Shown piece after piece: positions 24,863 to 37,438 of a stretch of 44,802 nt of DNA. Within the stretch, counting starts at the first letter, position 1; each line of letters opens with the position of its first letter. The notes under the pieces were generated by a model, which saw nothing but the letters and a program-made list of their open reading frames with translations, was not told the DNA's origin and did no database searches. Origin of the DNA: Thermoproteota archaeon (GTDB lineage Archaea > Korarchaeota > Korarchaeia > Korarchaeales > Korarchaeaceae); NCBI GenBank assembly GCA_027491435.1, contig JAOZFG010000021.1:1-44802 (forward strand), read 5' to 3'. The translations under genes and the position numbers were made by a program.

Positions 24863-25420
24863 ATGACCAAGGTCCTTATAATCGCTGGGGACGCTGTGGA
24901 GGCCCTCGAGCTATTCTACCCCTACTTTAGGTTAAAAGAGGAGGGCTTCGAAGTTGATGTGGCCGCTCCCTCCAAGAAGACCCTGTACACGGTAGTTCAC
25001 GACTTCGAGCCAGGGGTGGAGACTTACACGGAGAAGCCAGGGTACAGGTTCGGGTGGGTGACTAAGTCGTTCAAGGAAGTTAACCCTGAGGAGTATGATG
25101 GCCTGGTGATACCAGGGGGAAGGGCTCCTGAGTACATAAGAACTTACCCGGAGCTGGAAGGTGTAGTTAAGCACTTCTTTGAGGAAGGTAAGCCAGTAGC
25201 TGCCATCTGCCACGGTCCTCTAGTCCTAGCGGCCTACAATTTGGTGAAGGGGAGGAAGATGACCGCCTACATGGTGCTAAAGTCCGACATAGAGAACTCT
25301 GGAGGCACCTACGTTGATGAGGAGGTTGTCGTAGACGGCAACCTGGTTACCAGCAGGGCCTGGCCGGACAACCCCGCCTGGATGAGGGAGTTCATCAGGC
25401 TGTTGAAAGACCGTGACTAA
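24863..25420 (+). CDS. DJ-1/PfpI family protein
   Basis: A 185-residue DJ-1/PfpI/class-I-glutamine-amidotransferase-like protein. The nucleophile elbow AAICHGPL holds Cys116 followed by His117, and YDGLVIPGGRAPEY is the oxyanion-side loop. Family members have been described as intracellular proteases or as glyoxalase/deglycase-type repair enzymes; which applies here cannot be decided. Start ATG 24863 has GGTG 6 nt upstream and a TATA-like TTCTTTATTAAGG near 24826. It follows trxB by 54 nt and overlaps the convergent gene by 4 nt. Confidence 0.92.
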   Translation: MTKVLIIAGDAVEALELFYPYFRLKEEGFEVDVAAPSKKTLYTVVHDFEPGVETYTEKPGYRFGWVTKSFKEVNPEEYDGLVIPGGRAPEYIRTYPELEGVVKHFFEEGKPVAAICHGPLVLAAYNLVKGRKMTAYMVLKSDIENSGGTYVDEEVVVDGNLVTSRAWPDNPAWMREFIRLLKDRD

Positions 25421-26841
25421 ATACTCTCATATTTTTTCTTCAACCTCTCATACATTTCCCTGCTTATCTTTCCCTCCCTGTACATCCTCTCCAATCTCTT
25501 CAGGATTTCAGACCCAAATTCGTCCTCTACAACCTCTTCTGCTATCTCCTCTTTTGTCATCTGGGGAGCAGCCTTCACCTCATCAGTCATTATGGATTCT
25601 TGGGTTGTGAATTCTTGGGCCTCCACCCCCTGTATGGGCACCTCCTCACTCTCAGAAGTAGTCAGGCTCTCCGACTGTGGCTTCTCCTCAGTCCTAATCT
25701 CAGACGGCAGTTCTAAGAGGCTCTTCTCCAACTCTTCCAATGCCTTAAGCTCATCCTTTATAGATCTCTCTATCTTAGTAAGATCTTCTAGGGAATATCC
25801 CTCCTCCTTAAGCTCTTGGAGAACCTTAAGCCTTTCTTTGAGCTCTTCTTTCTTCTCTTTTATTCCCTCAACTCCTTTCTCCTTCAAGAGCTTAGAGAAC
25901 TTAAGGATTAAGGTCAGCCTCTCCTGAAGCTCCTTAAGCCTCCTCCTGTAGTCGGCCAAGTCTACCTTTCCTTTAACGAAGTCAAGTTTGAGCTTCATTA
26001 TTTCCTCCTTAACCATCTCCTCAACATCTATCCTTTTGAATTTTGGGCTCAAAAGCTTGCCCCTCCCTGGGATCTCACCTTTAACCTCCCTCTCGATTTT
26101 TGGCGTTGGCTCCAGATAACTTTTACTGGTATCGTTCGTGATCTTAACATCTCTGGCTGAGGTGAGGTTTGTGGCACGATTTTCCTCAAATTTAGGAATT
26201 GAAAGAGAAGAGTAGTTTTCCTCCTTAAATGACCTCGGCGTCTCTTGAGAGTTTTGTAAGGTCTCCCCTGGCTTCTTCAGCTTAGGTAAGGCGTATCTAG
26301 ATCCCTTTCTAGGCTCAGCTCTTTTATCAACTATTTTTTTCATTTTAGATTTATTTTCGCTATGAATCCAGCCAGCGAGCTCTATCAAGGCATCTAAAGG
26401 CATGGTGACGTCTCCTATAGTTATAAGCTTGGGATCCTCGCTTACCATGGTTACCGCCAAACCCTCCACGTTGTTTGGCAGTTGCTTCTCTATGCCCATC
26501 AGAGATTCCACCCTGAACTCCGAGTAAGTGATGAGGCCCACCTCGTACTTGCCCTTTTGATCAGAGAGGAAGTTTACCAGATCTATTAGCTGATCTGCAC
26601 TCCCAACTTTTCCCACTGCTACTACAAAGTATTCCTTTTTCTTGCCGAAGAGGCCAAACCTGCCCCCTCCTAACTTGGGTATGAACATTATCATGTCATA
26701 AAGTGGAGAGACTTGTTTTGCCTCTATTATGTTTATTTTAGAGACATCCCCCACATCTGAGAACATCTTTGTTATTTTTCCCATGAGCTGAGCCAGCACA
26801 GAGGCCGGCACGCCAGGAGCTTGAGAGAGATCTGATGACAT
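25417..26841 (-). CDS. Unknown protein with coiled coil and SHOCT-like segments
   Basis: A protein of about 474 residues in three parts: an N-terminal globular domain of ~150 residues of unknown type; a polar, probably disordered linker (~160-255); and a long helical, Lys/Glu-rich coiled-coil region (~270-380). Two short segments resemble the SHOCT motif: DFVKGKVDLADYRRRLKEL in the middle and MYREGKISREMYERLKKKY at the very C-terminus. SHOCT segments are thought to mediate oligomerisation or protein contacts. An in-frame GTG at 26862 is possible, but a TATA-like CTTTTTAGG near 26867 places a leaderless start at ATG 26841. No signal peptide. Function unknown. Confidence 0.75.
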   Translation of the reverse strand: MSSDLSQAPGVPASVLAQLMGKITKMFSDVGDVSKINIIEAKQVSPLYDMIMFIPKLGGGRFGLFGKKKEYFVVAVGKVGSADQLIDLVNFLSDQKGKYEVGLITYSEFRVESLMGIEKQLPNNVEGLAVTMVSEDPKLITIGDVTMPLDALIELAGWIHSENKSKMKKIVDKRAEPRKGSRYALPKLKKPGETLQNSQETPRSFKEENYSSLSIPKFEENRATNLTSARDVKITNDTSKSYLEPTPKIEREVKGEIPGRGKLLSPKFKRIDVEEMVKEEIMKLKLDFVKGKVDLADYRRRLKELQERLTLILKFSKLLKEKGVEGIKEKKEELKERLKVLQELKEEGYSLEDLTKIERSIKDELKALEELEKSLLELPSEIRTEEKPQSESLTTSESEEVPIQGVEAQEFTTQESIMTDEVKAAPQMTKEEIAEEVVEDEFGSEILKRLERMYREGKISREMYERLKKKYESI

Positions 26842-26875
26842 CAACTTATTTTCCTTTGGCACCTAAAAAGTGTTT

Positions 26876-27418: not shown

Positions 27419-28837
27419 TTATTGTTTCCAGAAGTCCACCGGAGGCTTGTGATCTGGGGGTATTAAGGGCCTGTATTTCCTGCCTCTCAACCTCCTCCTG
27501 TGATCCTCCTTCGCCTTAGCCAGTAAATCGGGATCTGTCATCAGGTCCAGGGCCGTTAGGGCCATGACCTTTGCCGCATATATCAGAGACCTGTAACCCA
27601 ACGGAGAACCTGACTGGGCCGTGCTCTGCCATGAGTGGAAGGGCGTGCCCAGCACCCATGCGGCCGTGCTGAACTCAACTGTGGGAGCCTTCCAGCTCAC
27701 ATCTCCGACATCGGTAGAGCCTGGCATGTACTCTCCCTCTCCCCAGGGGTCTGGGACCTCGTCGTCAACGAGTTTGTCCATTAAGCGCTCCCAATCCGGC
27801 CTTCTGGACTTCCTAAGCTGATTCTCCTTGACGTCCCTGGGGATCGTCTTCGCAATCTCCTCAGCGAACTTCCTGGCTTCTTCCGAGAGTGGTGGGATGC
27901 CTAGAGCCCTCATGTTCTCAACTATCCTTTCGGAGATGGGCCTGTTGGGTATCACGTTATATATAGCGTCTACAAGCTCCTCCTTCACCTGAGTGCCGGA
28001 CATTAGAGCTGCTCCCTTGGCTATGTCGAGAACCCTCGCGTATATCCTCTCAAGCTGATCCACTTCTGGAGCTCTAACGTAGTACCAACTCCTGGCGTAA
28101 TCCGGGACCACGTTAGGCTGTTCCCCTCCCCTCTCTATCACATAGTGGATCCTGGCTTCCTGTATTATGTGCTCCCTTAGGTAGTTAACGCCCACGTTCA
28201 TCAGCTCCACCCCGTCCAGCGCGCTCCTCCCCTCCTCTGGTGAGGCAGCTGCGTGGGAAGCAACGCCGTAAAAGTGGAACCTGGCTGACTTAACGGCTAA
28301 AGAGCTCATCAGGGTGACGGCGTTCATGTCGGCTGGGTGGTGAGATAAGACAGCATCGACACCGTCGAAGAGCCCGTCCCTGACCATGAAGACCTTGCCG
28401 CTGAAGTTCTCCTCGGCAGGGGTTCCGTAGAATCGTATAGTTCCCTTCACCCCCTTGAGCTCCATCACCCTCTTAACGGCCATGGCAGCGGCTAGGCCTG
28501 AGGTCCCGTGTATGTTGTGGCCACAACCATGGCCTGGGGCTCCTGGTTTTAAGGGCTCTCTCCATGGGACAGGTTTCTGTGATAGACCAGGAAGGGCATC
28601 AAATTCCCCCATTATCCCTATTACAGGCTTGCCCTTACCCCAACTGGCCACAAAGGCCGTGGGCATGTCAGAGACTCCTCTCTTAACGTGAAATCCAGCC
28701 GCTTCTAGGGTGTCGGCGAGCAACTTCGATGACTTGAACTCCTGGAGGCCTAACTCAGCGTACTCCCATATCTTCATGGATATATCTATAAAGAGGGACC
28801 GATTAGACTCGATATAATCGACTACATCCTCCAGCAT
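27419..28837 (-). CDS. M20 family amidohydrolase, AbgB-like
   Basis: A 472-residue metallo-amidohydrolase/peptidase of the M20 family, closest in feel to AbgB (p-aminobenzoyl-glutamate hydrolase subunit B). Metal and catalytic residues are visible in VIGIMGEFDALPGL (Asp), PGHGCGHNIHGTSG (His), YGTPAEENFSGK (Glu pair) and VDAVLSHHPADMN (His), with a dimerisation insert in the middle and PGSTDVGDVSWKAPTV near the C-terminus. It cleaves an amide bond of an N-acyl amino acid or a peptide-like substrate. A TATA-like AAATTTTATC near 28864 lies 27 nt before ATG 28837. It fits a peptide-using lifestyle together with the nearby transporter. Confidence 0.9.
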   Translation of the reverse strand: MLEDVVDYIESNRSLFIDISMKIWEYAELGLQEFKSSKLLADTLEAAGFHVKRGVSDMPTAFVASWGKGKPVIGIMGEFDALPGLSQKPVPWREPLKPGAPGHGCGHNIHGTSGLAAAMAVKRVMELKGVKGTIRFYGTPAEENFSGKVFMVRDGLFDGVDAVLSHHPADMNAVTLMSSLAVKSARFHFYGVASHAAASPEEGRSALDGVELMNVGVNYLREHIIQEARIHYVIERGGEQPNVVPDYARSWYYVRAPEVDQLERIYARVLDIAKGAALMSGTQVKEELVDAIYNVIPNRPISERIVENMRALGIPPLSEEARKFAEEIAKTIPRDVKENQLRKSRRPDWERLMDKLVDDEVPDPWGEGEYMPGSTDVGDVSWKAPTVEFSTAAWVLGTPFHSWQSTAQSGSPLGYRSLIYAAKVMALTALDLMTDPDLLAKAKEDHRRRLRGRKYRPLIPPDHKPPVDFWKQ

Positions 28838-28867: not shown

Positions 28868-29461
28868 TTAAGCTAAATCTGTCAGGAGCTCCCTGAGCTC
28901 TTCACTCTCCATGATGAGTTCTTCCATCAATCTGGACTTGCCCATGTGTCCTCTAATATAGGAAAGCTTACCCCTGCCCAGAGATAACTCGTCTAAAGTG
29001 TACTCTAGGCTACTCTGACTGACGACCTTCACCTCATCTATAAGGGCCCATTCTTCTACCCCTAGGAGTAAGTTCAGCCCGCGTATCGCTCCCTCCTTAA
29101 TCCCAAGCTCCCTAACTAAAAGGTCCTCAGCTTCAAGCAAAGATGTGTTAACGGGAAACAATAAGTTGAAACGATAAGACTTTCTAGCTTTTAATAGCCC
29201 TTCTCTTAACTTAGGAACCCTTTCAGCGTACTTATCGTATGAGTCCATTAACTTCTTGAAGACCTCTTTAGGGTCTATGAGCTGATCTAATTTGACGTCT
29301 CCATTACCAGGCCTGGGCTTTGGAATTATCAGAGGAATGAAGTGCTCAAGCCTGTTGGCCCACTTACTGAAGAATACGTCCACGTAAACCCGGACTTCAT
29401 GAGTCTCCCCAGCCGCTTTAACGGTCAACGTGACGGGTTTCACAGGGACTTCTAGAAGCAT
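28868..29461 (-). CDS. Hypothetical protein
   Basis: A 197-residue soluble, charged protein. The N-terminal third is beta-like (VTLTVKAAGETHEVRVYVDV) and the remainder helical (KLMDSYDKYAERVPKLREGL; MEELIMESEELRELLTDLA). No motif or family recognised. The ATG at 29461 lies 27 nt after a TATA-like GCTTTAAGTT (minus strand, near 29488), so a leaderless transcript is expected. The stop is 31 nt before the start of the M20 gene, which has its own TATA-like box. Confidence 0.7.
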   Translation of the reverse strand: MLLEVPVKPVTLTVKAAGETHEVRVYVDVFFSKWANRLEHFIPLIIPKPRPGNGDVKLDQLIDPKEVFKKLMDSYDKYAERVPKLREGLLKARKSYRFNLLFPVNTSLLEAEDLLVRELGIKEGAIRGLNLLLGVEEWALIDEVKVVSQSSLEYTLDELSLGRGKLSYIRGHMGKSRLMEELIMESEELRELLTDLA

Positions 29462-30530: not shown

Positions 30531-32330
30531 ATGAATAAGTACAAGCCCCTATTCATCCTGTTGGCCCTTCTACTGATCATTCCATACTTGGCAACCCCTC
30601 TTAAGGCATCCCCAGAGGAAAAAGAGCTCAAGTTTGAGTTAATGGTTCTAAGTTGGGACGGTCTGTCCGTTACTGCCGGAGAGGTCATAGCTGAGCAATT
30701 AAAGAAGGTCGGGATAAAAGTGGAGGTCTCAGCTCTAGACGACGCTGTCATGTACCCCAGGATAGATAAGAGAGACTACGACGCTGAGGAGATGGCTTAC
30801 GGAGTCGATCCCATACCAACTTACTTTTACGACCGCTTCCACTCATCTCAGGACTTTGAGGGTGGAAACAACGCCTGGAGCTATCATAACCCAGAGGTGG
30901 ACAAGCTTCTCGATCAGGCCTTCTCCACTGGCGACGTGAACAAGGCAAAGGAGCTGTTCCACAGGGCAGAGGCCTTAATAGCGGAGGACGTGCCCTACAT
31001 ACCCCTCTTCCTGGCTAAGGACGTTCACGCCTTTGCTAAGGGGTGGAAGAACTGGACCGTCATGCCAGCCGGCCCCATCTCGCCCTACAACAAGTTGACG
31101 CCCATCTACATATACAATGAGGATGGGAAGGACACCATGGTTATCAGGTACCCATCGGCCCCCGAGCCGCTGAGCCCCATGGCAGCAGACAACGGAAGGG
31201 CTCTCTACTACTGCTCCCTAGTTTACGACACCCTGATCGCCTACGATCCCCATCTGAAGCCAATACCTTGGCTGGCCAAGAGCTGGGAGATAAGCGATGA
31301 TGGCAAGACCATAACCTTCCACCTGAGGGAGGGGGTGAAGTGGCACGACGGCAAGCCCCTAACCTCCGAGGACGTGGCCTTCACCTTCAACTACATAAAG
31401 GAGAAGAAGGTGACCGGGGGCATATACACGGTCCACCTGATAAGGTTGTTGGATAGCGTTGAGACCCCCGATGAGCACACCGTCGTGGTTCACCTGAAGA
31501 GCCCGTTCCCGTTCGCCTTACACGTGTTCGGATACACCTTCATAGTGCCCAAGCACATATGGGAGAAGATAGATGAGTACGACTGGCCCGCCAGCAAGGC
31601 CCCAGAGTACGCCGTGGGCTCAGGCCCCTTCAAGTTCGTGAAGTACGTTGAGGGCGAATACTTAGAGCTGGCCAGGTTTGATGACTGGTGGGGCAAGAAA
31701 CCAAACATAAAGAGGCTGATAATCAAGATAATCAAGGAGGACGAGTCCACGATACTGCAGATAAAGAAGGGGGAGGTCACCACCTTCAGGTACGGCCTGA
31801 TGTCCCCCGGACTTATAAAGGCGGTTAGGAAGGATCCAGACCTCCAGGTGGTCGAGGCGATAGACCAGTGGGATTACCTGCTCGCCTTCAACAACAAGAG
31901 ATGGCCCTTCACCATAAAGGAGGTCAGGCAGGCCATAGCCTACGCCATCGATAAGAAGGAGATAGTTAAGAAGCTTTTGGACGTGGGGATAATAACTGAC
32001 AACTACGTGTTTGAGCAGTGGTACGGCGACTGGGCCAACCCCAACGTGCCTAAGTACGAGTACAACCCGGAGAAGGCTAAGGAGCTGTTGAGAAAGGCAG
32101 GGTTCGTTGACGTGGACGGCGATGGAATACTTGAGTACGCCCCCGAAAAGGCGAAGCCCACAACGCCAAGCCCAACGAAGACCCAGACAGTTCAGCCAAC
32201 AACCCAGAAGCCGACTCCAACTCCCACGACAACTGAGAAGCCCTCTGGTCCTGACATGACCCTTGTAGCTGGCGTTATCATACTGATCATAATAGTGTTG
32301 GCGGCCCTGTGGTACCTGAAGAAGCGTTAG
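30531..32330 (+). CDS. Dipeptide/oligopeptide ABC transporter substrate-binding protein, circularly permuted
   Basis: A 599-residue SBP_bac_5-type binding protein. Signal peptide at residues 1-26, PT-rich linker at 543-575, and C-terminal transmembrane anchor at ~577-595 ending in KKR, as usual in archaea. The order of the SBP parts is unusual. Residues ~30-195 (AGEVIAEQLKKVGIKVEV, YHNPEVDKLLDQAF, AEDVPYIPLFLAKDVHAFAK) are what is normally the C-terminal part. Residues ~201-540 (YCSLVYDTLIAYDPHLKPIP, DGKTITFHLREGVKWHDGKP, EVRQAIAYAIDKKEIVKKLL, KAKELLRKAGFVDVDGDGIL) are the normal N-terminal and middle parts. It leads a five-gene transporter operon. GGAGGG sits 4 nt before the ATG. Confidence 0.93.
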   Translation: MNKYKPLFILLALLLIIPYLATPLKASPEEKELKFELMVLSWDGLSVTAGEVIAEQLKKVGIKVEVSALDDAVMYPRIDKRDYDAEEMAYGVDPIPTYFYDRFHSSQDFEGGNNAWSYHNPEVDKLLDQAFSTGDVNKAKELFHRAEALIAEDVPYIPLFLAKDVHAFAKGWKNWTVMPAGPISPYNKLTPIYIYNEDGKDTMVIRYPSAPEPLSPMAADNGRALYYCSLVYDTLIAYDPHLKPIPWLAKSWEISDDGKTITFHLREGVKWHDGKPLTSEDVAFTFNYIKEKKVTGGIYTVHLIRLLDSVETPDEHTVVVHLKSPFPFALHVFGYTFIVPKHIWEKIDEYDWPASKAPEYAVGSGPFKFVKYVEGEYLELARFDDWWGKKPNIKRLIIKIIKEDESTILQIKKGEVTTFRYGLMSPGLIKAVRKDPDLQVVEAIDQWDYLLAFNNKRWPFTIKEVRQAIAYAIDKKEIVKKLLDVGIITDNYVFEQWYGDWANPNVPKYEYNPEKAKELLRKAGFVDVDGDGILEYAPEKAKPTTPSPTKTQTVQPTTQKPTPTPTTTEKPSGPDMTLVAGVIILIIIVLAALWYLKKR

Positions 32331-32343
32331 CCTCCCTTCTCCC

Positions 32344-32349
32344 TTTTTT
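32344..32349 (+). terminator. T-run between binding-protein and permease genes
   Basis: CCCTTTTTT follows the stop of the binding-protein gene and precedes the permease ribosome binding site. Oligo-T tracts can terminate archaeal transcription, so partial termination here could yield excess binding protein over permease. The effect is inferred. Confidence 0.3.
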
Positions 32350-32362
32350 AGGAGGTTTCTTT

Positions 32363-33343
32363 ATGGGGTTCAAGGAGTATGTGGCCAGGAGGTTACTCTC
32401 TTCCCTGGTCACCTTCTTCCTGATAATAGTGCTGAACTTCTTTATATTCAGGATAATGCCCGGAGATCCCACCAGGACCATAGCTAGGGATGCCAGGTTA
32501 CTGCCGGAGCAGAGAGAGCTTCTAAAGAAGAGGTTCGGGTTGGACAGGCCCTTGTGGGACCAGTTCATCCTTTACCTGGTAAACCTCTTCAGGGGGGACC
32601 TGGGCCTTTCCTTCCAGTACAGGGGGACTCCGGTAGTGGAGGTCATATTGGGCAGGAGGATGCTGAACACCTTCCTGTTGATGGGAAGTTCCATAGCCGT
32701 CGCCTTGGTTATAGGCATGACTTTAGGCACGATAGCCGCCTGGAAGAGGGGCTCCAAGGCCGACATCGCCGCCATAATATTTTCCCTGGTCACGTACTCC
32801 ATACCCACTTTTTGGATGGGGATGCTCCTGATACTGGTCTTCGGCTATTACCTGGATTGGATCCCCATCAGCGGGACCATAACCACAGGGGTTGAGTATC
32901 AAACCTTCTGGGAGTACGCAGCAGACTACCTTCACCACATGGTCGGCCCCATGGTAACTTTGGTGATCTCCTTCATAGGGTATCACTTCCTCCTGATGAG
33001 GAACTCCCTGCTGGACGTCTTCACCGAGGATTACATGCTGACTGCTATTGCAAAGGGACTCAGCACTAGGACCATACTGTTCAAACACGCTATGAGGAAC
33101 GCCCTGCTCCCCATGATATCCGTCATGGCTTTGGAGGTAGTTTACCTGTTCAGCGGAGCTACGGCCACTGAGACCGTCTTCACCTGGCAGGGGTTAGGCC
33201 TGCTGATATACGAGTCTGTGGTAAAGCAGGACTACCCCGTGCTTCAGGGCATATTCATATTCATGGCCTTAGCCGTGCTCACGGCCAACTTCGTAGCCGA
33301 CGTGGTCTACGCCTTAGTGGACCCCAGGATAAGGTACGGGTAG
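32363..33343 (+). CDS. dppB: Dipeptide/oligopeptide ABC transporter permease (DppB-type)
   Basis: A 326-residue permease with about six membrane helices. The N-terminal FKEYVARRLLSSLVTFFLII and FRIMPGDPT are DppB-typical. The EAA coupling motif is in the region AIAKGLSTRTILFKHAMRNA, which contacts the ATPases. I chose ATG 32363 because AGGAGGT (32350-32356) lies 6 nt upstream; the longer frame from 32309 would overlap the binding-protein gene. With the next gene it forms the heterodimeric channel. Confidence 0.94.
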   Translation: MGFKEYVARRLLSSLVTFFLIIVLNFFIFRIMPGDPTRTIARDARLLPEQRELLKKRFGLDRPLWDQFILYLVNLFRGDLGLSFQYRGTPVVEVILGRRMLNTFLLMGSSIAVALVIGMTLGTIAAWKRGSKADIAAIIFSLVTYSIPTFWMGMLLILVFGYYLDWIPISGTITTGVEYQTFWEYAADYLHHMVGPMVTLVISFIGYHFLLMRNSLLDVFTEDYMLTAIAKGLSTRTILFKHAMRNALLPMISVMALEVVYLFSGATATETVFTWQGLGLLIYESVVKQDYPVLQGIFIFMALAVLTANFVADVVYALVDPRIRYG

Positions 33344-33347
33344 GAGC

Positions 33348-34226
33348 ATGAAGGGGTTAAAGTTAAGGTTAAGAGTACTCAGGAGGAGGGTCTCGAACTT
33401 CTGGAGGATTTACAGGACCAGCAAGTTGGGGTTAGCTGGCCTAGCCATAATACTGGGCTACGTGGCCCTGGCCGTGATGGCCCCCTACATAACCCCCTAC
33501 GACCCCTTTGAGAGCGTCGCCCTGCCCTTCGAGGAGCCATCTCCTCAACACCCGCTGGGCACGGATCACCTGGGAAGGGACCTCTTGAGCGAGCTAATTT
33601 ACGGCACCAGAGTATCCCTCATGATAGGCCTGACGGCCAGCTTCATCTCGGTCATGATAGGCACTACCGTAGGGCTTATAGCCGGCTTCTTCGGGGGCAA
33701 GGTCGACACGGTGCTTATGAGGCTCACGGACACCTTCATACAGATGCCTCAGCTCCCCCTGATGCTCATATTCGTCTCTATACTGGGTAAAGGAATACTG
33801 AACATAGTGCTGGCCATCTCAGTCGTCGCCTGGACGGCGAGCGCAAGGATAGCCAGATCTTTAACCCTCTCACTTAAGGAGAGGCCTTTCGTGGAGGCAG
33901 CCAGGGCTGTAGGAGCAGGAAGCTTCCAGATCCTGTGGAGGCACATAGTGCCCAACGTGTTCCCGGTGATATTCGCATACGCTAACATAGCCGTGGTGGA
34001 CGCCATACTCTCTGAGTCATTCCTTAGCTTCATAGGCTTTGGAGATCCCAGGACACCGAGCTGGGGCATGATCCTCTACTTCGCCAGCAGGTCTGGGGCC
34101 ATGAGCAATGGATTTTGGTGGTTCGTCATACCGCCAGGCCTCATGATAATGACGCTAGCCCTGGGATTTGCGATAACTAACTACAGCCTGGATCAGGTGC
34201 TGAACCCGAGGCTGAGGAGGAGGTAG
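33348..34226 (+). CDS. dppC: Dipeptide/oligopeptide ABC transporter permease (DppC-type)
   Basis: A 292-residue permease with six membrane helices and the DppC-typical N-terminus (KLGLAGLAIILGYVALAVMA, then YDPFESVALPFEEPSPQHPL and GTDHLGRDLLSELIYGTRVS). The EAA coupling loop is EAARAVGAGSFQILWRHIVP. It starts 4 nt after dppB, with TAGGAG overlapping the stop as ribosome binding site, and ends 1 nt before dppD. It pairs with the DppB-type subunit to form the transmembrane pathway for short peptides. Confidence 0.94.
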   Translation: MKGLKLRLRVLRRRVSNFWRIYRTSKLGLAGLAIILGYVALAVMAPYITPYDPFESVALPFEEPSPQHPLGTDHLGRDLLSELIYGTRVSLMIGLTASFISVMIGTTVGLIAGFFGGKVDTVLMRLTDTFIQMPQLPLMLIFVSILGKGILNIVLAISVVAWTASARIARSLTLSLKERPFVEAARAVGAGSFQILWRHIVPNVFPVIFAYANIAVVDAILSESFLSFIGFGDPRTPSWGMILYFASRSGAMSNGFWWFVIPPGLMIMTLALGFAITNYSLDQVLNPRLRRR

Positions 34227-34227
34227 C

Positions 34228-35175
34228 ATGCTCCTTAAAGTTAGAGACCTCAGGGTTTACTATGACACGGTTGCTGGAGTCGTCAAGGCGGTGGACGGGG
34301 TCTCCCTATCCGTGGAGAGGGGCGAGATAGTTGGCCTGGCTGGGGAATCTGGGAGCGGGAAGACGACGATGGCCAGGGCCATAATGAGGCTTCTGCCAAG
34401 CAACGCCAGGATTGTCTCGGGGGAGATAGTTCTGGATGGCGTGGACGTGCTCTCCCTGAGCGAGAGCGAACTTAAGGATTTTAGGTGGAAGAAGGTGTCC
34501 ATGGTCTTCCAGGGGGCGATGAACGCTCTAAACCCAGTCCTGAGGGTTGGGGAACAGATAGCGGAGGTTCTGGTGGAAAAGGCTGGATACGATAAGAGAA
34601 GAGCTTGGAGCAGGGTGGAGGAGCTGTTCAAACTGGTTGGCATAGACCCTTCTAGAACTAGAGATTATCCGCACGAGTTTAGCGGTGGGATGAGACAGAG
34701 GGCAGTAATAGCCATGGCCATAGCCCTCAACCCAGACTTAGTTATAGCCGATGAGCCTGTTACTGCCTTGGACGTGGTGGTACAATCGAAGATACTGGAC
34801 CTTCTTAAGAGGTTAAGGGATGAGCTGGGCATAAGCGTTCTCCTGATAACTCACGACCTCTCAGTCATAGCCGAGGCCTGTGACAGGACGGCGATAATGT
34901 ACGCTGGTAGGATAGTGGAGTACGGCTCCACCGAGGAGGTGTTCGAGGAGCCCCTTCACCCCTACACTAGAGCTTTGATCTCAGCCTTCCCCAGCATTAC
35001 GGGCGAGAGGAGGAGCTTTGAGCCCATAAAGGGTGATCCTCCAAACATGTTGAACCTCCCCCCTGGATGTGCGTTTCACCCCAGGTGTCCTAAAGCCTTC
35101 GATAAGTGCAGTAAGGAGGTACCGGAGCTAAAGGAGGTGAAGGGAAGGCTGGTGGCCTGTCACCTCTGGGGGTGA
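34228..35175 (+). CDS. dppD: Dipeptide/oligopeptide ABC transporter ATPase (DppD-type)
   Basis: A 315-residue ATPase. Walker A GESGSGKTT at residues 39-47, Q-loop Gln95 in MVFQGAMNALNP, ABC signature FSGGMRQR at 151-158, Walker B LVIADEP at 171-177, and H-loop LLITHDLS. The C-terminal oligopeptide-transporter extension has CAFHPRCPKAFDKC and a final Cys, the four-cysteine set that is seen in many DppD/OppD proteins and may bind an iron-sulfur cluster. It starts directly after dppC. All catalytic residues are present. Confidence 0.95.
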   Translation: MLLKVRDLRVYYDTVAGVVKAVDGVSLSVERGEIVGLAGESGSGKTTMARAIMRLLPSNARIVSGEIVLDGVDVLSLSESELKDFRWKKVSMVFQGAMNALNPVLRVGEQIAEVLVEKAGYDKRRAWSRVEELFKLVGIDPSRTRDYPHEFSGGMRQRAVIAMAIALNPDLVIADEPVTALDVVVQSKILDLLKRLRDELGISVLLITHDLSVIAEACDRTAIMYAGRIVEYGSTEEVFEEPLHPYTRALISAFPSITGERRSFEPIKGDPPNMLNLPPGCAFHPRCPKAFDKCSKEVPELKEVKGRLVACHLWG

Positions 35176-35179
35176 TCCA

Positions 35180-36160
35180 ATGCTGGAAGTTAAGGACCTT
35201 AGGGTCTGGTTTCCTGCTAGGACTTCGTTCTGGCAGTCGCTAAAGGGAGTGAGTAGGTACGTTAAGGCTGTGGACGGCGTGTCGTTCACCATCAAGAGAG
35301 GGGAGGTCCTGGCCCTTGTGGGCGAGTCGGGGAGCGGGAAAACCACTACCGGGAAGGCGATACTTAGGCTTATAGAGCCTACCTCAGGGGAAGTATGGTT
35401 TGAAGGGGTTAACGTGCTTTCTCTTAACAAGAAGGAGCTCAAGGAGTTCAGGAGGAAGGCCCAAATAATATTTCAGGACCCCTTCGAATCCCTAGACCCC
35501 AGAATGACCATCTACGACATAGTGGCGGAGCCCCTCAAAGTTAACAAGGTGTATGGGTCGGCCGATGAGGAGTACGACGCCGTGGCCAAGGCTTTGGAGG
35601 ACGTCAGGCTGGTGCCCCCGGAGGACTTCATGACCAGGTTCCCCCATGAGCTCTCTGGCGGGCAAAGGCAGAGGGTCGCCATAGCTAGGGCCCTCATACT
35701 TAGGCCTAAGTTCATAGTGGCCGACGAGCCGGTAAGCATGTTGGACGCCTCGATAAGGACTCAGATACTTGAGCTGATGGAGGACCTCAGGAAGGAGTAC
35801 GGGCTCACCTACCTCTTCATAACCCACGACCTAGCTCAGGCCAGGTACACCAGTGACAGGATAGCAGTCATGTACCTGGGGAGGATAATGGAGATAGGGC
35901 CTACAGAGGAAGTTGTATCCAACCCGCTGCACCCCTACACCAAGGTGCTTATATCACACGTTCCAATACCGGATCCTAAGCTTGCCAAGAGTAGGAAGAA
36001 GATAGACGTGCCTGGAGAGACTCCTAGCCCCATAGACCTCCCACCAGGCTGCAGGTTTTACCCCAGGTGCCCTTTCGCCAGGGAAGTGTGTAAGGAAGAG
36101 CCTCAGTTAATTGAGGTAGAGCCAGGAAGGTGGGTGAGCTGTCACCTAGTGAGGAGTTAA
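35180..36160 (+). CDS. dppF: Dipeptide/oligopeptide ABC transporter ATPase (DppF-type)
   Basis: A 326-residue ATPase, the partner of DppD. Walker A GESGSGKTTTGKA, Q-loop IIFQDPFESLDPRMT, signature SGGQRQRVAIARAL, Walker B FIVADEPVSMLDAS and H-loop FITHDLAQARY are all intact. The C-terminal extension carries CRFYPRCPFAREVC and a final Cys-His, again a four-cysteine set. It starts 4 nt after dppD and is the last gene of the operon. Together the two ATPases energise peptide import. Confidence 0.95.
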   Translation: MLEVKDLRVWFPARTSFWQSLKGVSRYVKAVDGVSFTIKRGEVLALVGESGSGKTTTGKAILRLIEPTSGEVWFEGVNVLSLNKKELKEFRRKAQIIFQDPFESLDPRMTIYDIVAEPLKVNKVYGSADEEYDAVAKALEDVRLVPPEDFMTRFPHELSGGQRQRVAIARALILRPKFIVADEPVSMLDASIRTQILELMEDLRKEYGLTYLFITHDLAQARYTSDRIAVMYLGRIMEIGPTEEVVSNPLHPYTKVLISHVPIPDPKLAKSRKKIDVPGETPSPIDLPPGCRFYPRCPFAREVCKEEPQLIEVEPGRWVSCHLVRS

Positions 36161-36460: not shown

Positions 36461-37438
36461 TCAAGTAGAGGAGCTCCTAGGCAGCTTTGGGCTGACCACC
36501 CGGCCCATGTCCTCTGGTATCTGGTAACCACTAAACCTTAGGGAGAGCGACCTAATCCTAGATAAGAGCTCCTTGAACTCCCTAAAGGAGTCTTCCTCAA
36601 CGAATTCAGCCGCTAGGGCGAAGTCGAACTGTTCCCAGCACACTGGCTTGAACTCGAGGCCATAGCGTTCTGCTGTCTCCCTTAGGGTTAAGGTCAGGTC
36701 GGCCCTCCCTTCAGCCACCTCAAGACAGATCTCATCGTGCCTGTAGAACTCCTCTCCCCTAGGGGAAAAGCCCAATAGCTTCTCAAGGAGGATCCTAGTC
36801 CCTGAACCCCTATTTCTCAGCGCCAGCTTCAGCCTTCCCTTCCTTATAGCCCTTAAGTCCGGCTCAGTCCCCGGCCTGAAGGCCCAGCCCACCTCCCTCC
36901 TAAAGCCCCTAACCAGTAAGACCTCCCCTCCTGGGAAGAGCTTCCTTACCACCGTATTGTACTCGCCGGTGTCCACGTCTAATATGTGAATCCCAGCCAC
37001 GTCCGCTTCTCCTACGGCTAAGTAGAGCAGGGCCGCGGAGGATCCGACCCACCTAACCCTTAAACCATTGGAGGAAGCTTCCAGGAGGGGATCGTGACTG
37101 CTGGCAATCACTATCCCCTCGAAGGACTTCTCCTCAGCCTTCCCCATCAAGTAAGCGTTTAGCAGCTCCTTCCCTAACTCAGTCAGAGTGGCCCCTCCTC
37201 CTCCCTTGCCCCCCTTAACCGACCTTATCACTTTCCCTCCAAGCTCCCTTTCCAGAGAGGCAAGCCTCCTCCACGCCCTTGAGTAAGGGATTCCAAGCTC
37301 CTTGGCTGCCGATAATATTGAACCAGTTTCCTTGACTTTCAAGAGGATTTCACCAGTTAGCTCGTCCATGACCTTCCTCCCATCCAAGTAGACGCTTACC
37401 TCTAGAACTGGCTTTAACCTCAAGCCTTCTCCTGCCAC
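36461..37438 (-). CDS. ModE-type HTH fused to periplasmic-binding-like sensor domain (COG1910-like)
   Basis: A 325-residue regulator. The N-terminal ~105 residues are a ModE/LysR-like winged helix (GSILSAAKELGIPYSRAWRR, then the glycine-rich wing VKGGKGGGGATLTELGKELL). Residues ~110-310 form a PBP-like ligand domain (VIASSHDPLLEA, DVAGIHILDVDTGEY, LALRNRGSGTRILLEKLL), as in COG1910 proteins associated with molybdate/tungstate or related oxyanions. The ligand here is unproven. The start is GTG 37438 with GAGGTG 5-6 nt upstream. It begins 10 nt after the ATPase-nuclease stop, so it is the third gene of that operon; no transporter for an oxyanion is nearby. Confidence 0.85.
   Translation of the reverse strand: MAGEGLRLKPVLEVSVYLDGRKVMDELTGEILLKVKETGSILSAAKELGIPYSRAWRRLASLERELGGKVIRSVKGGKGGGGATLTELGKELLNAYLMGKAEEKSFEGIVIASSHDPLLEASSNGLRVRWVGSSAALLYLAVGEADVAGIHILDVDTGEYNTVVRKLFPGGEVLLVRGFRREVGWAFRPGTEPDLRAIRKGRLKLALRNRGSGTRILLEKLLGFSPRGEEFYRHDEICLEVAEGRADLTLTLRETAERYGLEFKPVCWEQFDFALAAEFVEEDSFREFKELLSRIRSLSLRFSGYQIPEDMGRVVSPKLPRSSST

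Follow-up and report, generated by a model that had tools for sequence, protein, structure and literature searches.

We show that a gene in the window, by which we mean the whole 44,802-nucleotide stretch of DNA that was analysed, encodes a circularly permuted substrate-binding protein of family 5 (SBP_bac_5, cluster C). The gene (30531-32330, forward strand) is an open frame of 599 amino acids with two matches to PF00496 in swapped order. We consider it very likely that its product is a working, membrane-tethered extracytoplasmic family-5 protein with a permuted binding domain, that it serves the adjacent OppBCDF-type importer, and that its rotation was separate from that of a large group of proteins sharing its cut; its fold, ligand and part in transport we infer. 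This reading is based on block order, block completeness, conservation, the operon, the end modules and the finding that its nearest canonical relatives belong to the same archaeal group. The protein is probably one product of a wider, recurrent natural permutation in family 5, scattered over archaea and bacteria and of several origins.

Block order, ends and predicted fold

The sequence GGAGGG lies a few bases 5' of the ATG, and the protein scores 311.9 bits with Pfam as a whole, against a curated cut-off of 32.4. The canonical C-terminal block now comes first, at residues ~31-195 (30621-31115, forward strand), where PF00496 profile positions 288-364 match residues 33-107 (C20:30627-30851, E 2.7e-8). 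The canonical N-terminal and middle block follows at residues ~200-536 (31128-32138, forward strand), with profile positions 1-297 matching residues 243-549 (C20:31257-32180, E 2.4e-84). Profiles built for the separate blocks find C2 2-166 first and then N2 1-330, both complete and in one copy each. Alignment to 4pfu pairs residues 47-175 with 4pfu 372-509 and residues 228-537 with 4pfu 35-353, and the solved structure 8efz gives the same permuted alignment. The canonical N-to-C order is not found in this protein, which is thus a permuted variant of PF00496 and cluster C and not a canonical member. The initial annotation had read a block swap from the letters of the sequence, and the two segments do map to PF00496 in permuted, not normal, order.

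Canonical relatives are continuous through '...GW(V/I)D.D.DG(I/W).E.PDGK...FEI..PSYDP.R...'. In the permuted protein the first half of this stretch is the C-terminal domain end, and the second half comes after the signal peptide. Canonical relatives of the same genus have the unbroken chain '...AKQLLDELGWVDKDNDGIRETPDGKDVAFEIYPPSYDPARVRAAEMI...'; here the domain ends in '...AKELLRKAGFVDVDGDGILEY' and starts, after the signal peptide, with 'KELKFELMVLSWDGLSVTAGEVIAEQL'. The end points given in the initial annotation are correct, with the new ends meeting exactly where intact paralogs are continuous. From the block boundaries, the new junction of the original C terminus with the original N terminus lies at residues ~189-200 (31095-31130, forward strand), and a short stretch at residues ~190-200 links the two.

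A signal peptide, a PT linker and a membrane anchor had also been proposed, and all three are present in their usual places as judged by hydropathy and sequence. The signal peptide occupies residues ~1-27 (30531-30611, forward strand), with an N-terminal hydropathy peak at residues ~3-27 and an AlphaFold2 helix at 5-20. The PT-rich linker, residues ~537-570 (32139-32240, forward strand), is evident from the sequence and has low AlphaFold2 confidence at 543-574. The C-terminal anchor (32241-32327, forward strand) is preceded by PSGPDMT, is hydrophobic at ~571-598, ends in LKKR and aligns with the anchors of canonical paralogs from sister species. Its sequence, 'KPSGPDMTLVAGVIILIIIVLAALWYLKKR', nearly matches the sister-species anchor 'APSGPDMTMIGAIIVLLIIIIAAVWLFLKKK', with an alignment score of 101-103 against a shuffled maximum of 37-48. 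As anchor, signal peptide and linker are unchanged, we conclude that the binding domain alone was rotated, between constant end modules. Hydropathy and the linked OppBCDF-like genes predict an extracytoplasmic protein with a tether.

The two termini of an ordinary family-5 protein are neighbours and can be linked. Because the canonical termini adjoin, and because the new ends lie in the loop that connects a helix (AKELLRKAGF) to a strand (FELMVLSW), the permuted chain should form the usual two-lobed Venus-flytrap fold. An AlphaFold2 model computed from only six sequences (mean pLDDT 73.6, pTM 0.70) has confident strands and helices in both blocks; its confidence is low for the signal peptide, residues 175-190 and the PT linker, and the alignment behind it is shallow. 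All PDB matches of this model in a sequential Foldseek search are canonical family-5 proteins, with ~345-400 aligned columns and TM-scores of 0.44-0.54 by target. Partial scores are what a sequential aligner would be expected to give for a rotated chain; they are consistent with a two-lobed fold and no proof of it. No solved structure with the permuted order was among the PDB matches from sequence search or Foldseek.

Cut sites and origins of the rotation

When the fetched proteins were all classified by block order, 116 proved canonical, 28 had the cut described above (the window-type cut) and 12 had a second one, which falls within the N block at about profile position 188. All 12 second-cut proteins come from Synergistaceae (L052, 3932-5569, and L205-L215) and run in the order N187-330, C, N5-190; a junction-profile match occurs in 28 of 81 Synergistaceae genomes, and 28 of 29 matches span the junction. 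The window's own genome also encodes a 981-residue permuted protein of the second type (L220; G000:C32, 2078-5023, reverse strand; PF00496 144-355, then 28-155), and G016, G017 and G018 contain L220-like matches that keep this order or at least the first part of it. Three archaeal proteins (L221, 1724-4078, reverse; L222, 1780-3843, forward; L223, 2957-5140, reverse) are cut at a third site, towards the end of the C block; in them the motif 'xLxxAAxxETDxxxRxxLYxxxQxxxxxELPLIY' sits before the N block, at the N terminus. This cut is invisible to PF00496, giving a fully collinear match, because the profile covers the middle of the domain and ends before the last C-block motif. One third-cut protein belongs to G033, a Thermococcales-like genome by inferred taxonomy, and the window-type junction was found in 0 of 61 genomes of the order thus assigned to it. 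Since second and third cut sites exist, permutation has certainly occurred more than once in family 5.

For phylogenetic analysis the two blocks of each protein were restored to canonical order and then aligned (71 rows). The window-type cut falls into four groups in the resulting tree. The first comprises 19 bacterial and haloarchaeal proteins (support 100/99) and spans several bacterial phyla as well as haloarchaea. The second joins the window protein to L009 (100/100), a pair that L226 joins with full support and that is sister to the Synergistaceae type (97/90). The third consists of L018, L028 and L219 (100/97), and the fourth is L218, paired with canonical L109 (100/99). L218 (913-2463, reverse strand) and L109 (581-2290, forward strand) are the closest permuted and canonical pair found; a permease gene apparently comes next after each of them.

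For the N block of the window protein, the closest canonical proteins are from its own genus (~38-40% identity); for the C block, the closest is L020, a canonical protein of the same family. This difference in the top canonical match (L010 for N, L020 for C) could indicate a fusion rather than a rotation, in which the first block came from one family-5 gene and was joined to the N-terminal part of another. However, both match lists include canonical relatives of the same archaeal family, with L003, from the protein's own genome, among the best for each block; the bit scores of the N and C blocks are correlated over the 116 canonical proteins (Spearman 0.44); and there is a single copy of each block, with ends that match. 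The clearest example is L218, whose two halves share L109 as their best canonical relative, at 50% identity in the N block and 39% in the C block. We regard a fusion as unlikely. The window-type permutation probably arose by rotation within a canonical archaeal gene, separately from the large bacterial and haloarchaeal group. The initial annotation had suggested tandem duplication followed by trimming of the outer parts; this route may apply and is compatible with the end modules having been kept, but screening of loci and open reading frames yielded no intermediate with a tandem duplication.

The identical cut position in all four groups would fit a single ancient permutation, inherited or transferred sideways, and the breadth of the large group implies that transfer is frequent. 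The phylogenetic evidence is against such a common source: the four groups were united in 0 of 200 bootstrap trees, and L218 groups with a canonical protein. AU tests rejected a single clade of all window-type proteins (lnL -205.7, p 1.1e-21), the same clade without L218 (p 0.0056) and a clade of the window pair with the large group (p 0.0064), and marginally rejected the window pair with the G017 type (p 0.036), for groups that were partly picked after the tree was seen and sequences that are divergent. The further cut sites also speak against it, and we consider a single origin quite improbable. More than one origin of the window-type cut is surer than the exact number of origins.

Importer operon, function and relatives

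Directly downstream of the permuted gene, and on the same strand, Pfam identifies an OppB/DppB-like permease (32309-33343, with a true start that may be the ATG near 32363; PF00528 E 7e-38, PF19300), an OppC/DppC-like permease (33348-34226; PF00528 E 4.5e-27, PF12911), an OppD/DppD-like ATPase (34228-35175) and an OppF/DppF-like ATPase (35180-36160), the last two each with PF00005 and PF08352. Just beyond this importer operon lies a gene for a ModE-like regulator (36461-37438, reverse strand), with a LysR-type helix-turn-helix and a periplasmic-binding-protein-like domain (PF00126, PF12727). Upstream and divergent is a gene for an M20-family amidohydrolase or peptidase (27419-28837, reverse strand; PF01546 E 1.4e-11), and near it are two reverse-strand frames without a Pfam match (25417-26862, 481 residues, and 28868-29461, 197 residues).

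The window's genome has canonical family-5 proteins at three other places (C6, C8 and C43); these could serve this importer and would leave the permuted protein as a surface-bound sensor or a decayed copy. We find this very improbable, as the gene is intact, well conserved and placed immediately before oppBCDF, and its same-order relatives usually head importer operons too. As the binding subunit of the adjacent importer, the permuted protein would bind a solute and pass it to the OppBCDF-type importer encoded alongside; the solute is probably a peptide or another small oligomer. Its tether would depart not at the canonical C terminus but at the loop that follows the AKxLLxxAG helix.

The peptide-binding role named in the initial annotation is one candidate among several: members of family 5 bind sugars, nickel and opines as well, and by sequence the permuted protein finds its best PDB match in a mannoside-binding protein. 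M20 genes also occur near permuted-protein operons in G018, Halalkalicoccus, Roseomonas and Ketogulonicigenium; the presence of these nearby genes weakly suggests peptides or acylated amino acids as the substrate. Proteins of the window-type group have another residue in place of the Arg of the canonical 'SYDPxR' (LSWDGLSVTAGE), and thus the ligand may not be a standard peptide. Escherichia coli DppA holds its dipeptide through two charged residues, R383 and D436 (PMC12136057).

The same block order recurs in relatives from independent genomes. G018, of the same family and another genus, encodes a full-length counterpart (51% identity over residues 19-598) with an importer permease next to it, and G017 carries two permuted genes; the junction is absent from the rest of the 29 genomes covered for the phylum. 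In a wider set of 394 relatives, G721, an archaeon of another family, has a protein of the same order that is ~37% identical and also anchored. A scan of genome contigs with the window protein as single query found no relative, whereas an alignment-based genome scan, with block-order profiles, found permuted proteins in Desulfobacterales, a clostridial metagenome-assembled genome, a gammaproteobacterium and Pararhodobacter. In the groups sampled, the junction was present in the Pararhodobacter family (6 of 101 genomes), the Desulfobacterales class (5 of 147) and the clostridial class (1 of 148).

Searching plasmids by tblastn with the window protein returned mostly canonical proteins in two pieces; the permuted Pararhodobacter protein worked much better as a query. 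Complete plasmids of Nitratireductor (pOM-1, 68%), Halalkalicoccus jeotgali (plasmid 2), Haladaptatus and Natrialba magadii (pNMAG02), which span haloarchaea and Alphaproteobacteria, carry full-length, single-piece matches, and permease and ATPase genes come next in each case. The window is one contig from a draft assembly of 43, but an assembly or binning error, with misjoined contigs or a collapsed tandem array producing the permuted order, can be dismissed given this recurrence in G018, G017, G721, bacteria and complete plasmids and the well-supported groups that permuted rows form across many genomes. The proposal that this is a working permuted protein and not an error is strongly supported: independent genomes and complete replicons share the order, and such genes stand first in importer operons.

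Relation to known proteins and significance

Relative to the canonical members of SBP_bac_5 and cluster C (DppA, OppA, AppA, NikA; PF00496), the protein retains both blocks complete, strong similarity, a signal peptide and an OppBCDF-type operon. It differs in its rotated block order, the fusion of the original termini and the position of the new termini after the AKxLLxxAG helix. The canonical anchored paralogs L010, L012 and L015, of the same genus, share its signal peptide and a near-identical PSGPDMT...LKKK anchor; canonical L003, from its own genome, shares the signal peptide and PT linker and has an anchor that matches more weakly. All four are ~38-40% identical to it in the N block, but in them the same end modules flank blocks that follow the normal order.

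A natural permutation is known from another family of binding proteins. TpMglB-2 (Tp0684) of Treponema pallidum, classed as 'Type Ic/Cluster Bc', is naturally circularly permuted and still binds glucose, and tethering has been raised as a possible reason for its permutation (PMC4990184). Like the window protein it is a naturally permuted binding protein of an ABC importer, of a kind usually tethered, but it is a type I/cluster B sugar-binding protein with one cut site and a fourth hinge crossing (PMC4990184). The family-5 permutations, by contrast, affect cluster C, use at least three cut sites and probably have several origins. No homology to the TpMglB-2 type (type I/cluster B) was detected in the window protein, for which Pfam gives PF00496 only and the PDB matches listed are all of family 5. 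Additionally, many bacterial permuted proteins end without an anchor, so tethering cannot account for all permutations.

Few groups of transporter binding proteins are as large as family 5. The initial annotation took the permuted form to be undescribed, and we found no description of natural permutation in family-5, oligopeptide- or DppA-type binding proteins in the open-access literature; the form is not unique, being scattered through archaea and bacteria. NCBIfam holds no model of it, all matches being to canonical models far below cut-off, and NCBI annotates the permuted proteins simply as 'ABC transporter substrate-binding protein'. PF00496 and NCBI annotation thus share a blind spot for permuted family-5 proteins.

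Taken across the family, we think it likely that cluster C has been permuted repeatedly, through independent rotations in several archaeal and bacterial lineages and at no fewer than three cut sites, yielding hidden subfamilies that are annotated as ordinary and in which the tether, moved to a new C-terminal loop, may alter docking to the importer. Such recurrence provides natural replicates for asking why folds permute, whether by neutral drift, given adjacent termini, or by selection on where the tether exits. Pairs of permuted and canonical proteins, such as L218 with L109 and the window protein with its anchored paralogs, make the choice between drift and selection directly testable.
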